64,000 nucleotides of DNA from Flavobacteriales bacterium (GTDB taxonomy: Bacteria > Bacteroidota > Bacteroidia > Flavobacteriales_F > PHOS-HE28): positions 2,523,497-2,587,496 of the forward strand of contig CP129489.1 of the NCBI GenBank assembly GCA_030584065.1, in the 5' to 3' direction. Each line of letters starts with the position of its first letter. The stretch's first letter is position 1. Position numbers and translations under genes: made by a program. Below are positions 31,971 through 37,585 of this stretch, piece by piece. The notes under the pieces are model-generated. The model was given only the letters and a program-made list of their open reading frames with translations. It ran no database searches and was not told the DNA's origin.

Positions 31971-31995
31971 TGCGCGTAGCCTGCGGCTACGCGCA
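31971..31995. repeat. REP hairpin upstream of the RAYT gene (11-bp perfect arms)
   Basis: TGCGCGTAGCC-TGC-GGCTACGCGCA. The longest of the REP-type stems in the island; the core GTAGCC/GGCTAC is shared with the hairpins downstream of the transposase. The 218 bp before this island (from 31801) holds no gene I can support. Confidence 0.85.
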
Positions 31996-32010
31996 ACAAC
32001 GCAGGCTCAT

Positions 32011-32027
32011 GGTAGCCTGTGGCTACC
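32011..32027. repeat. REP hairpin adjoining the RAYT start
   Basis: GGTAGCC-TGT-GGCTACC, a perfect 7-bp stem ending 9 nt before the ATG at 32037. It overlaps an alternative GTG start (32019) and may influence transposase translation. Confidence 0.8.
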
Positions 32028-32036
32028 TTCCCCTCC

Positions 32037-32576
32037 ATGCCGGGCTACAGCATACACGACCAGCACGCCATCCACTTCGTCACCTTCACCATTGTGGAAT
32101 GGATCGATGTGTTCACGCGGCGCATCTACCGCGACATCGTGCTCGACAGCTTCCGCTACTGCCAGAACCACAAAGGACTGAAGGTGCATGCGTGGGTGAT
32201 CATGAGCAATCATGTGCACGCCGTGCTGAGCGCCTCGGAGGGCAACCTCTCCGATGTGATCCGCGACCTGAAGGGCCATACGAGCAAGGCCATCGTCGCG
32301 GCAGTACAGAATGAGAATGAAAGCCGTCGCGAATGGATGCTGGCCCGGTTCGCGGCGAATGCTGTGACGCACGCCCGCAACACGCACTACCAGGTGTGGA
32401 CGCATGACAACCACCCGCTCCAGCTTCAATCATACACCATCAAGCAGCGCGTGGACTACACCCACCAGAACCCCGTCCGCGCGGGTTGGGTGGACCAGCC
32501 ACGCGACTACCTCTACAGCTCGGCGCGTGACTACCAGGATGAGCCCGGCTTGCTGAAGGTGGATAGGGTGTGGTGA
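32037..32576 (+). CDS. REP-associated tyrosine transposase (RAYT, Y1/IS200-like)
   Basis: 179 residues from ATG 32037 (MPGYSIHDQHAIHFVTFTIV). The HUH metal motif is H59-V60-H61 in WVIMSNHVHAVLSA. The conserved C-terminal block DYTHQNPVRAGWV contains Tyr141, the probable nucleophile; W121 and the HDNHPLQL stretch fit the family. RAYTs are single-copy domesticated Y1 nucleases that cut and move REP hairpins. Palindromes with the same GTAGCC/GGCTAC core flank it on both sides, matching a RAYT/REP unit. Its GC resembles the core genome, not the low-GC genes nearby. Confidence 0.9.
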   Translation: MPGYSIHDQHAIHFVTFTIVEWIDVFTRRIYRDIVLDSFRYCQNHKGLKVHAWVIMSNHVHAVLSASEGNLSDVIRDLKGHTSKAIVAAVQNENESRREWMLARFAANAVTHARNTHYQVWTHDNHPLQLQSYTIKQRVDYTHQNPVRAGWVDQPRDYLYSSARDYQDEPGLLKVDRVW

Positions 32577-32605
32577 ACTCTGTGCGTAGCCGTACACTGC
32601 GCATA

Positions 32606-32759
32606 GCCTGCGGCTACGCGCAACACCGTAGGCTCTTCGCAGCCTGTGGCTGCCGCATTCGTTGTTGCCATGCGGCAGGTAGCCAAAGGCTACCATGTTC
32701 CTGTTCTTGTCGAGCGTAGCCGCAGGCTACGCTCAGATAGCGGACACGCTACGCGCAGT
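32606..32759. repeat. REP cluster, copy 1 of a direct duplication
   Basis: Contains hairpins GCAGCC-TGT-GGCTGC (32639-32653), TGCCGCAT/ATGCGGCA (32651-32677), GGTAGCC-AAA-GGCTACC (32678-32694) and GAGCGTAGCC-GCA-GGCTACGCTC (32712-32734, perfect 10-bp stem). Bases 32606-32738 match copy 2 at a constant offset of 227 bp with four substitutions; a further 15 bp match after a 6-bp divergent patch. Confidence 0.88.
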
Positions 32760-32832
32760 GGGGGGGAAAATTGCTGATGGCGATTTCGTGAACCTGGATG
32801 ATTGAATCCTGACCTTCTTCCTTCTGCACATT

Positions 32833-32986
32833 GCCTGCGGCTACGCGCAACACCGTAGGCTCTTCGCAGCCTGTGGCTGCCGCATTCGTTGTTGCCGTGC
32901 GGCAGGTAGCCACAAGCTACCATGTTCCCGTTCTTGTCGAGCGTAGCCGCAGGCTACGCTCAGATGATCGCCACGCTACGCACAGT
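32833..32986. repeat. REP cluster, copy 2 of a direct duplication
   Basis: Same order of hairpins as copy 1, 227 bp further on. The GAGCGTAGCC/GGCTACGCTC stem (32939-32961) is perfectly kept, while GGTAGCC-AAA-GGCTACC has become GGTAGC-CACAA-GCTACC. The unique spacer between the copies (about 32760-32832) shows no gene. Confidence 0.88.
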
Positions 32987-33137
32987 TGGGACCCCGGATG
33001 GCCGGGACCTACGCGCTTCGCGCGCCCGGCCTCCCGCCCTTCGGGCTGGGGGACGATCACGAACGGGGCCGGTGATCACGGCTGCTAGACGCAGGGTCGC
33101 CGAAGAAGGCAGACCGCTGCGGTGGCAGGTAGGCGGT
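32987..33137. other. GC-rich hairpin-bearing intergenic stretch
   Basis: No gene seen. Contains several further inverted repeats, among them CCCGCCC-TTC-GGGCTGGG and GATCAC-N11-GTGATC (33055-33077). It joins the REP duplication to the short CACCCTGC repeats. Confidence 0.5.
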
Positions 33138-33243
33138 CACCCTGCGCGGGTATAATTACACCCTGCGCGGGTCTAGAAGGCGGTACGCGAGTACACCCTG
33201 CCGGGGCTTAAAATCTACACGCAGTCGGGGACACCCTGCCCGC
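33138..33243. repeat. Short CACCCTGC(G/C)(C/G)GGG repeats, irregularly spaced
   Basis: CACCCTGCGCGGGT occurs at 33138-33151 and 33159-33172. Variants follow at 33194 (CACCCTGCCGGGG), 33218 (CACGCAGTCGGGG) and 33232 (CACCCTGCCCGC). Each is a small dyad (ACCC...GGGT). The array ends at the stop of the next minus-strand gene. Confidence 0.6.
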
Positions 33244-33245
33244 TC

Positions 33246-34097: not shown

Positions 34098-34156
34098 GTC
34101 AGATTGGTTTGCCCGGCTGAAAGTAACCAAGCTACTTGACCAAGCAGCGAGTGCCA

Positions 34157-34206
34157 CGAGTCACAGACTCGCGGCAGCGGGGGAGCCACAGGCTCACGGC
34201 AGCGGG
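34157..34206. repeat. Two tandem REP-like hairpins with a common tail
   Basis: CGAGTC-ACA-GACTCG (34157-34171) and GAGCC-ACA-GGCTC (34183-34195), each followed by CGGCAGCGGGG. Same loop, different stem, same tail: a covarying repeat family distinct from the GTAGCC REPs. It lies between the two low-GC genes and could also act as the terminator of the 34218-35009 gene. Confidence 0.6.
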
Positions 34207-35077: not shown

Positions 35078-37585
35078 CTACCCGCTGCACATCTCGCACC
35101 CCTCCGGGTTATCGAGGCTGCAGGCAATCTCGGCGGCGGCGCGCTCCTCGGCGGTCATGGCCTTGGGGCTCCGTTCGACTGAGCTCACGGCATGGGTCGT
35201 TGTGGGGCCGCTGATCACGGGGTCCATCACCACGGTGCTGCCCACCGCCACGCCGTTGCCAGCTCCCTCGCTCGCCGAGGCCTTGGCGTAGGCGGGCTCC
35301 TTCGCCGCCGCAGGCTCCGCGAGCTTGCTCTTATCCACCGTGAACTTGATGGCATCGGTAGCGGCCTTGGTGCGCAGGTAGTACATGCCGGTCTTCAGGC
35401 CCGCCTTCCAGCTGTAGAAGTGCATGCTGGTGAGCTTGCCGAAGTTGGCGTTCTCCATGAAGATGTTGAGGCTCTGGCTCTGGCAGATGAAGGCACCGCG
35501 GTCGGCCGCCATGTCGATGATCACCTTCTGGCTGATCTCCCAGGCGGTCTTGTAGAGGTCCTTGAGGTTCTGCGGGATCTCCGGGATGTTGGCCACGCTG
35601 CCGTTGGCGGCGATGATCTTGTTCTTGAGCGTCTCGTCCCACAGGCCCAGCTTCACCAGGTCGCGCAGCAGGTACTTGTTCACCACCACGAATTCGCCGC
35701 TGAGCACGCGGCGCGTGTAGATGTTGCTGGTGTAGGGCTCGAAGCACTCGTTGTTGCCCAGGATCTGCGCGGTGCTGGCCGTGGGCATGGGCGCCAGCAG
35801 CAGGCTGTTGCGCACGCCGTGCTGCTTCACCTCGGCGCGCAGCGCCTCCCACTCCCAGCGGTCGCTGGGCTTCACGCCCCACATGTCGGGCTGCATGATG
35901 CCCTTGCTCATGGGGCTGCCGGCGTAGGTCTCGTAGGGGCCTTCCTCCTTCGCCAGGTCCTTGCTGGCGGTGAGGGCGGCGTAGTAGATGGTCTCGAAGA
36001 TCTCGCGGTTCAGCACTTTCGCCTCCACGCTGTCGAATGGATAGCGCATGAGGATGAAGGCGTCGGCCAGGCCCTGCACGCCGATGCCGATGGGGCGGTG
36101 GCGCATGTTGCTGCGGCGCGCCTCGGGGATCGGGTAGTAGTTCTGGTCGATGACCCGGTTGAGGTTCTTGGTGAGCTGGTAGGTGACCTCGAAGAGCTTG
36201 TCGTGGTCGAACTTGCCCTTCTCCACGAACTTGGGCAGGGCGATGGAGCCGAGGTTGCACACGGCCACTTCATCGGGGCTGGTGTACTCGATGATCTCCG
36301 TGCAGAGGTTGCTGCTCTTGATGGTGCCCAGGTTCTGCTGGTTGCTCTTGCGGTTGGCGGCATCCTTGAAGAGCATGTAGGGCGTGCCGGTCTCGATCTG
36401 GCTCTCGAGGATCTTGAACCAGAGCTCCTGGGCCTTGATGGTCTGGCGGCCCTTGCCCTCGGCCTCGTACTTCTCATAGAGCGCCTCGAACTCCTCGCTG
36501 TGGGTGTCGCAGAGGCCGGGGCACTCGTTGGGGCACATGAGGGTCCAGTCGCCGTTCTGCTCCACGCGCTTCATGAAGAGGTCGGGGATCCACATGGCGT
36601 AGAAGAGGTCGCGGGCGCGCATCTCCTCCTTGCCGTGGTTCTTCTTGAGCTCGAGGAAGTCGAAGATGTCGGCGTGCCAGGGCTCGAGGTAGATGGCGAA
36701 GGAGCCTTTGCGCTTGCCGCCGCCCTGGTCCACGTAGCGGGCGGTGTCGTTGAAGACGCGCAGCATGGGCACGATGCCGTTGCTGGTGCCGTTGGTGCCC
36801 TTGATGTAGCTGCCCTTGGCGCGCAGGTTGTGCACGCTGAGGCCGATGCCGCCGGCGCTCTGGCTGATCTGGGCGCACTGCTTCAGGGTGTCGTAGATGC
36901 CGCTGATGCTGTCGTCCTTCAGCTGCAGCAGGAAGCAGCTGCTCATCTGCGGCTTGGGGGTGCCGGCGTTGAAGAGCGTGGGGGTGGCGTGGGTGTACCA
37001 GCCCTCGCTCAGGTCGTTGTAGGTGCGGATGGCACTCTCCAGGTCCTCCTTGTGGATGCCGACGGCCACGCGCATGAGCATCTGCTGCGGGCGCTCCACC
37101 ACCTTGCCGTGCATGCGCAGGAGGTAGCTGCGCTCCAGGGTCTTGAATCCGAAGAAGTCGTAGCTGAAGTCGCGGTCGTAGATGATGGCGCTGTCCAGCG
37201 TATCGGCGTGCTTGCGGATGATCTGGTACACGTCCTCGGCGATGAGGCTGGCCTTCTCGCCGGTCTTGGGGTCCACGTAGTCGTAGAGGTCCTTCATGGT
37301 CTCGCTGAAGGACTTCTTGGTGTTCTTGTGCAGGTTGCTGACGGCGATGCGGCTGGCGAGCTGGGCATAGTCCGGGTGCTTCACCGTCATGGTGGCGGCC
37401 ACCTCGGCGGTGAGGTTGTCGAGCTCGGTGGTGGTGACGCCATCGTAGATGCCGTCGATCACCTTCATGGTGACCACGGTGGCATCCACCATGGGGTCCA
37501 GTCCATAGCACAGCTTCTTCACCCGGGCGGTGATCTTGTCGAACTTCACTGCCTCCCGGCGGCCGTCGCGCTTGATGACGTACAT
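35078..37585 (-). CDS. nrdA: Ribonucleoside-diphosphate reductase, alpha (large) subunit, class Ia
   Basis: 835 residues. ATP-cone allosteric domain at about 1-95 ([18 protein letters not shown]), then the ten-stranded catalytic barrel. Active-site residues are visible: Cys in SSCFLLQ (about 215), N-x-C-x-E in SNLCTEI (about 427, the thiyl-radical cysteine) and Cys in AVCNLGSI (about 442). The C-terminal swinging arm ends CEMCSG (redox CxxC). Reduces NDPs to dNDPs with NrdB. The linker before the tail (about 755-815) is unusually long and carries two segments, [11 protein letters not shown] and SSVERSPKA, that look repeat-derived. It follows nrdB in the same direction, 246 bp apart. Confidence 0.95.
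35273..35288. repeat. Imperfect 16-bp palindrome inside the nrdA linker
   Basis: CGCCGAGGCCTTGGCG reads the same on the other strand except for one mismatched pair. It encodes the centre of the AYAKASAS segment. Together with CCGTTCGACTGAGCTCACGG near 35169-35188 it marks the poorly conserved linker of NrdA. Confidence 0.4.

Follow-up and report, generated by a model that had tools for sequence, protein, structure and literature searches.

Introduction

The window analysed here, 64,000 nucleotides of a Flavobacteriales genome, holds a gene for a REP-associated tyrosine transposase (RAYT) set among short hairpins. Do gene and hairpins work together as one system, and how has that system come to lie where it does? 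A first-pass annotation had read the locus as a complete RAYT with cognate hairpins in a high-GC member of the Bacteroidota. This description is borne out: the open reading frame (ORF) is intact, ten hairpins flank it, and the 3.92 Mb genome has a GC content of 66%. Published work has settled neither the form of the atypical hairpins of Bacteroidetes RAYTs nor whether descent or transfer spreads RAYTs. Across 45 related genomes of the genus studied here there are seven or more RAYT clades, most of them with a recognisable hairpin to themselves, which makes enzyme-hairpin recognition testable. At one locus the RAYT is intact in some genomes, broken in others and lost in yet others, which makes the persistence of REPs after RAYT loss testable too.

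The RAYT gene and its protein

The HuH motif of the protein is NHVH and the catalytic tyrosine lies within YTHQNP (Table 1). An alternative in-frame GTG start at 32019 is possible. The protein matches Pfam Y1_Tnp and scores 94.1 bits with the NCBIfam model for REP-associated tyrosine transposases (NF047646), above the cut-off of 80, and 26.9 with the NCBIfam IS200 model, below the cut-off of 55. Residues H59, H61, Y141, N145 and P146 are unchanged across an alignment of 21 relatives. The AlphaFold model, built with a 21-row alignment, has a pLDDT of 92.5. Its top PDB match is E. coli TnpAREP (4er8; E 1.7e-7; TM 0.60/0.64), and the ISDra2 and IS608 transposases rank after it. The gene is single copy, with one match at E≤1e-20 in its own genome (G000). 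Its closest named relatives come from Flavobacteriales MAGs, and the relatives belong to the Bacteroidota. Between G000 and the congeneric genome G021, dN is 0.11 and dS is 1.0 (dN/dS about 0.11), values that show purifying selection.

Two other Y1 genes are present in the same genome. One (1969111, minus strand; locus L015, G000:C1:1968399-1969767) is accompanied by a different hairpin, CCACGCYNNRGCGTGG. Of the eight copies of this hairpin in the genome, seven fall within 1.4 kb and some apparently sit inside the ORF, an arrangement also described for subclass 2.4. The pattern recurs beside Y1 genes in G034, G013, G028 and G021. The other is IS200-like (L014, G000:C1:347298-347643) and is split in two frames, likewise in the same-species genome G001.

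Table 1. Features of the RAYT locus (window positions)
Feature	Position	Strand	Remarks
H1 hairpin TGCGCGTAGCC-TGC-GGCTACGCGCA	31971-31995	+	perfect 11 bp stem
H2 hairpin GGTAGCC-TGT-GGCTACC	32011-32027	+	perfect 7 bp stem; ATG 9 nt further on
RAYT / TnpA-REP gene, subclass 2.6 type	32037-32576	+	ORF, 179 aa, ATG start
Four-hairpin module H1-H2-H2'-H1', copy 1	32597-32763		direct repeat
H1 hairpin, one mismatch	32598-32622	+	starts 21 nt past RAYT stop codon
H2 hairpin GCAGCC-TGT-GGCTGC	32639-32653	+	compensatory T-A to C-G, pair 48-60 of doublet alignment
H2' hairpin, AAA loop (inverted doublet)	32678-32694	-	40 nt spacing from H2
H1' hairpin, GCA loop (inverted doublet)	32712-32734	-	37 nt spacing from H2'
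Four-hairpin module, copy 2	32824-32990		92% identical to copy 1
Module copy 2 hairpin, degenerate	32825-32849
Module copy 2 hairpin, GCAGCC/GGCTGC	32866-32880
Module copy 2 hairpin, one mismatch	32905-32921
Module copy 2 hairpin, GCA loop	32939-32961
nrdA	35078-37585	-	flanks RAYT/hairpin unit

Hairpins form a fixed doublet and a four-hairpin module

Two hairpins lie upstream of the gene, both perfect as the first-pass annotation had stated, and eight lie downstream. It had counted at least seven downstream hairpins sharing the core GTAGCC-N3-GGCTAC; the core is intact in just 5 of the 10, so the count stands if degenerate copies are included. The wider pattern GTAGCC-N(2-8)-GGCTAC occurs five times in the window versus 0.01 expected, and none of 100 shuffles reaches five. 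The GTAG of these hairpins is paired within the stem, and the unpaired 5' GT[AG]G foot of a canonical REP is absent. We dropped GTAG as a canonical guide because it is paired and because the cores of other clades differ (GGATC, AGTC, AGTT, CTCGGC).

The hairpins are of two kinds, H1 (GCGTAGCC...GGCTACGC, with a longer foot) and H2 (GGTAGCC...GGCTACC). Together they make a fixed doublet, 34-37 nt apart, which also occurs in the inverted form H2'-H1'; in the upstream pair (31971-32027) the cores are 36 nt apart. The variation in stems that had suggested several REP subtypes per enzyme is better read as these two hairpin types of one doublet. Two facing doublets form a four-hairpin module, H1-H2-H2'-H1', with core spacings of 36/40/37 nt, and thus show the inverted repeat units with regular spacing seen in REPINs and BIMEs. 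The spacing is identical in the window, G037 and G021, and is 36/41/37 in G044. The downstream array is a tandem direct repeat of the 167-nt module, with 92% identity. When folded as single-stranded DNA the module reaches -50.4 kcal/mol (z = -4.7), and the doublet has z = -5.1. By the coordinates of the 45-genome pattern search, neighbouring hairpins are 35-37 nt apart in 21 of 24 pairs; the remaining three are at 40-42 nt, as expected for H2-H2'.

To assess stem covariation, 42 doublets of the genus were aligned. Pairing is kept in 95.4% of pairs, and both sides have changed in 32 cells versus a shuffle mean of 12.3, a count that none of 500 shuffles reached. In this alignment H1 has a conserved CTG at its 5' foot and not GT[AG]G. 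In canonical systems TnpAREP cuts at CT beside the hairpin (PMC8266576), and by analogy the CTG can be inferred to be a candidate cut site.

Two further motifs were seen near the arrays. A hairpin, TGCCACGAGTCACAGACTCGCGGCA, lies at 34152-34176, upstream of a 303-aa gene, and recurs near nrdA in G044 and G012, where no linked RAYT was identified. Just past the hairpin arrays, two separate genome sites (window 33139-33245 and L018:1731-1830) carry several repeats of the motif (T/G)ACACCCTGC with GC-rich letters after it.

The hairpin population of the genome is small

Hairpins were counted genome-wide by pattern searches. There are 10 perfect N3 hairpins in four clusters, versus 1 for the reversed control pattern, and 5 of the 10 are at the RAYT locus. 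Genome-wide there is no large REP population. Classical REPs exceed 100 copies per genome (PMC2817692); the population here is tiny, half local, and unlike theirs. A blastn search with the doublet finds nine places in the genome. Among the dispersed copies, which have no RAYT gene, two (L016) are four-hairpin modules and others are single doublets, and the units inspected sit between genes. Across the 45 congeneric genomes the searches return 92 hairpins versus 21 for the control pattern.

No empty site that would reveal movement of a doublet was found: the same-species genome G001 is gapped and other relatives are too diverged. The G001 assembly breaks at the RAYT locus, where a contig ends in a fragment of the upstream neighbour gene (94% identity), and another hairpin site of G001 falls in an N gap. 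A dispersed doublet has two neighbours at L018:593-1550, a toxin-antitoxin pair of ParDE type and a duplicated module some 390 nt long, present in multiple copies in several congeneric genomes.

Hairpins follow RAYT clades across the genus

RAYTs of this type are found at E≤1e-20 in 22 of the 45 genomes, and their tree has at least seven clades. The flanks of 37 congeneric RAYT genes were searched, over 150-190 nt on each side, for hairpins with 8 or more net pairs. Hairpins lie upstream of 22, downstream of 26 and on both sides of 17, versus shuffle means of 0.93, 0.87 and 0.03. The two flanks of one RAYT share a string of 19.4 nt on average versus 8.0 nt between clades, a value reached in 0 of 10,000 permutations. 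These sequence comparisons argue strongly for joint evolution of hairpin and enzyme. The flanks of clade E and of two single RAYT genes have no hairpin over the threshold, and long strings are still common to both flanks there. In clades A, C and D the hairpin type directly upstream differs from that directly downstream.

Hairpins are more numerous in genomes with the cognate RAYT or a relic of it. For clade A, to which the window RAYT belongs, genomes with the gene or a relic have a mean of 5.7 hairpins versus 1.5 without (p = 0.005, relatedness between genomes ignored); the exceptions are G002 and G038, with 10 and 11 hairpins and no clade A RAYT. For clade B, whose hairpin is GGCGCGGATC-TGC-GATCCGTGCC, the means are 10.6 and 1.05 (p = 0.0001, relatedness between genomes again ignored). 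Clade B hairpins have grown to 20 copies in G017, in four local arrays (contigs C79, C102, C183 and C228) whose copies are spaced by roughly 40 and 91 nt. In several other clades (RAYT flanks in L038, L053, L054, L057, L060 and L047) the hairpin retains a single mismatch, A-C or G-T, around the fourth pair counted from the base (GGCAC...GCGCC or complement), so that the stem has a strand sense. Clade A hairpins are without this mismatch.

A RAYT locus downstream of nrdA and the probable loss of its gene

In each of the six genomes that have it, the clade A RAYT is found 0.7-5.6 kb downstream of nrdA and in one and the same orientation. It is intact in G000, G021 and G013 and broken in G037, G044 and G025; in G013 and G044 it has the same T9SS-type neighbour as in the window. 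Four genomes (G002, G003, G009 and G023) have hairpins alone at the nrdA-linked site, and tblastn found no RAYT relics in these hairpin-only loci. G009 and G023 have other Y1 genes, none related to the window RAYT at E≤1e-20, and G002, G003 and G038 carry 7-11 hairpins with no Y1 transposase match.

Hairpins in relatives that lack any RAYT were the observation that the first-pass annotation named as counting against a RAYT/REP link, and to the letter they exist (G002, G003 and G038). Gene loss fits them better than the lack of a link, because the hairpins of G002, G003, G009 and G023 share the nrdA-linked position at which six genomes have the gene intact or broken. The simplest reading of these sequences is that a long-resident RAYT disappeared several times and left its hairpins behind, and hairpins in relatives without a RAYT are probably fossils. 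RAYT loss that leaves REPs in place has precedents in E. coli and others (PMC6006769; PMC8049555). The synonymous divergence of the RAYT is about twice that of nrdA, which tells against vertical descent as a certainty and leaves it as likely.

Clade B in G041 and clade K in G042 and G019 likewise have a RAYT no more than about 7 kb from nrdA. A single origin of all nrdA-linked RAYTs was rejected since the tree puts them in more than one clade, and given clades B and K the nrdA site may be an insertion hotspot.

Working model and alternatives

We consider it probable that the locus is a REPtron, in which one single-copy HuH/Tyr single-stranded DNA endonuclease (a RAYT of TnpA-Y1 subclass 2.6 type) and its cognate hairpin doublets would work as TnpAREP does. 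The model starts from the gene and hairpins observed, their fixed spacing and covariation, the pairing of clade and hairpin, and the nrdA-linked site with its broken and missing RAYTs. By analogy with TnpAREP, the RAYT would act on single-stranded DNA, binding one strand of the folded H1 and H2 hairpins, using Tyr141 to cut close by and then rejoining the strand. Occasionally a doublet, or two doublets facing each other, would be copied into a new intergenic site. Local duplication, seen here as the 167-nt tandem repeat, would add hairpin copies at the locus. We infer such binding, cleavage and copying, as well as vertical inheritance followed by loss in some lineages. The very low copy number for a REP family speaks against the REPtron model.

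The hairpins might instead be the left and right ends (H2 before, H1 after) of an IS200/IS605-like insertion sequence that moves with its gene as a unit, and the differing upstream and downstream types of clades A, C and D do resemble such ends. We regard this as highly improbable: clade A has one copy per genome, always nrdA-linked and in one orientation, the dispersed copies are gene-less doublets, and the protein falls on the REP-transposase side of both NCBIfam cut-offs. A host function with no link to the RAYT, the hairpins being ordinary terminators, RNA stabilisers or protein sites, would agree with their persistence in genomes without a RAYT and with the intergenic position of the inspected units. 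The hairpin sequence tracks the RAYT clade, however, and we give this explanation very little credence. Terminators were rejected, as the main stems have no T-run and two weak terminator-like matches lie away from them, and so was a structured RNA, with no matching Rfam family.

Another alternative differs from the REPtron explanation in history only, leaving the unit and its working the same: the region downstream of nrdA would be a hotspot that repeatedly receives unrelated RAYT/REP units by horizontal transfer, so that the loci share a place and not descent. The clade B and K RAYTs near nrdA, which place the nrdA-linked genes in more than one clade, favour it. The uniform orientation at all six clade A loci, the T9SS-type neighbour common to the window, G013 and G044, and the broken copies and hairpin-only loci at the same site within clade A argue the other way, and we think it unlikely. 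The H2-gene-H1 order kept in three clades suggests a further proposal, which we offer as speculative and rather doubtful. Subclass 2.6 RAYTs may use an asymmetric two-hairpin substrate, unlike a single GTAG-footed REP, in which H2 descends from the left end and H1 from the right end of an ancestral IS200/IS605 element, and the H1-H2 doublet in its dispersed form represents the joined ends of the circle. If true, the group would be a surviving transitional form between insertion sequences and REPtrons.

Comparison with known systems

The first-pass annotation described such systems as little known in Bacteroidota. This is only partly true, as TnpA-Y1 subclass 2.6 was defined as a Bacteroidetes group by Quentin et al. 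2018 (PMC6006769), whose main text equates it with Bertels group 5. The same text gives its signatures as NH[LIV]H, WQ, YIH[QN]NP and a length of about 179 aa, and its hairpins as atypical, without GT[AG]G, with copies elsewhere in the genome. The window RAYT shares the Bacteroidetes host, the 179 aa, NHVH, the Y-H-QNP motif, the lack of a GT[AG]G foot and the copies elsewhere (here five perfect hairpins outside the locus). It differs by one residue each in having WT, not WQ, and YTHQNP, not YIHQNP; WQ and YIHQNP are seen in relatives aligned with it. The window unit is a RAYT/hairpin system of already known type with nearly all subclass 2.6 signatures, a well-formed, ordinary member of its class. 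The main text of PMC6006769 holds no description of the doublet or the four-hairpin module, and we claim no priority for this geometry.

The E. coli TnpAREP REPtron and its BIMEs (4er8; PMC8266576) have the same HuH/Tyr fold, a single-copy gene with flanking hairpins, two hairpin variants and inverted arrays. Here, in contrast, the GTAG foot is absent, about 10 perfect hairpins stand against hundreds of REPs, and clade A stems are perfect, without a conserved bulge. As in REPINs (PMC3116915, PMC8049555), two inverted units form a long hairpin and the RAYT is lost in some genomes while repeats remain, whereas here each arm has two hairpins and the population is tiny. The IS200/IS605 elements IS608 and ISDra2 share the Y1 transposase fold and hairpins near both gene ends, but the gene described here, in single copy at a fixed site, has no sign of movement.
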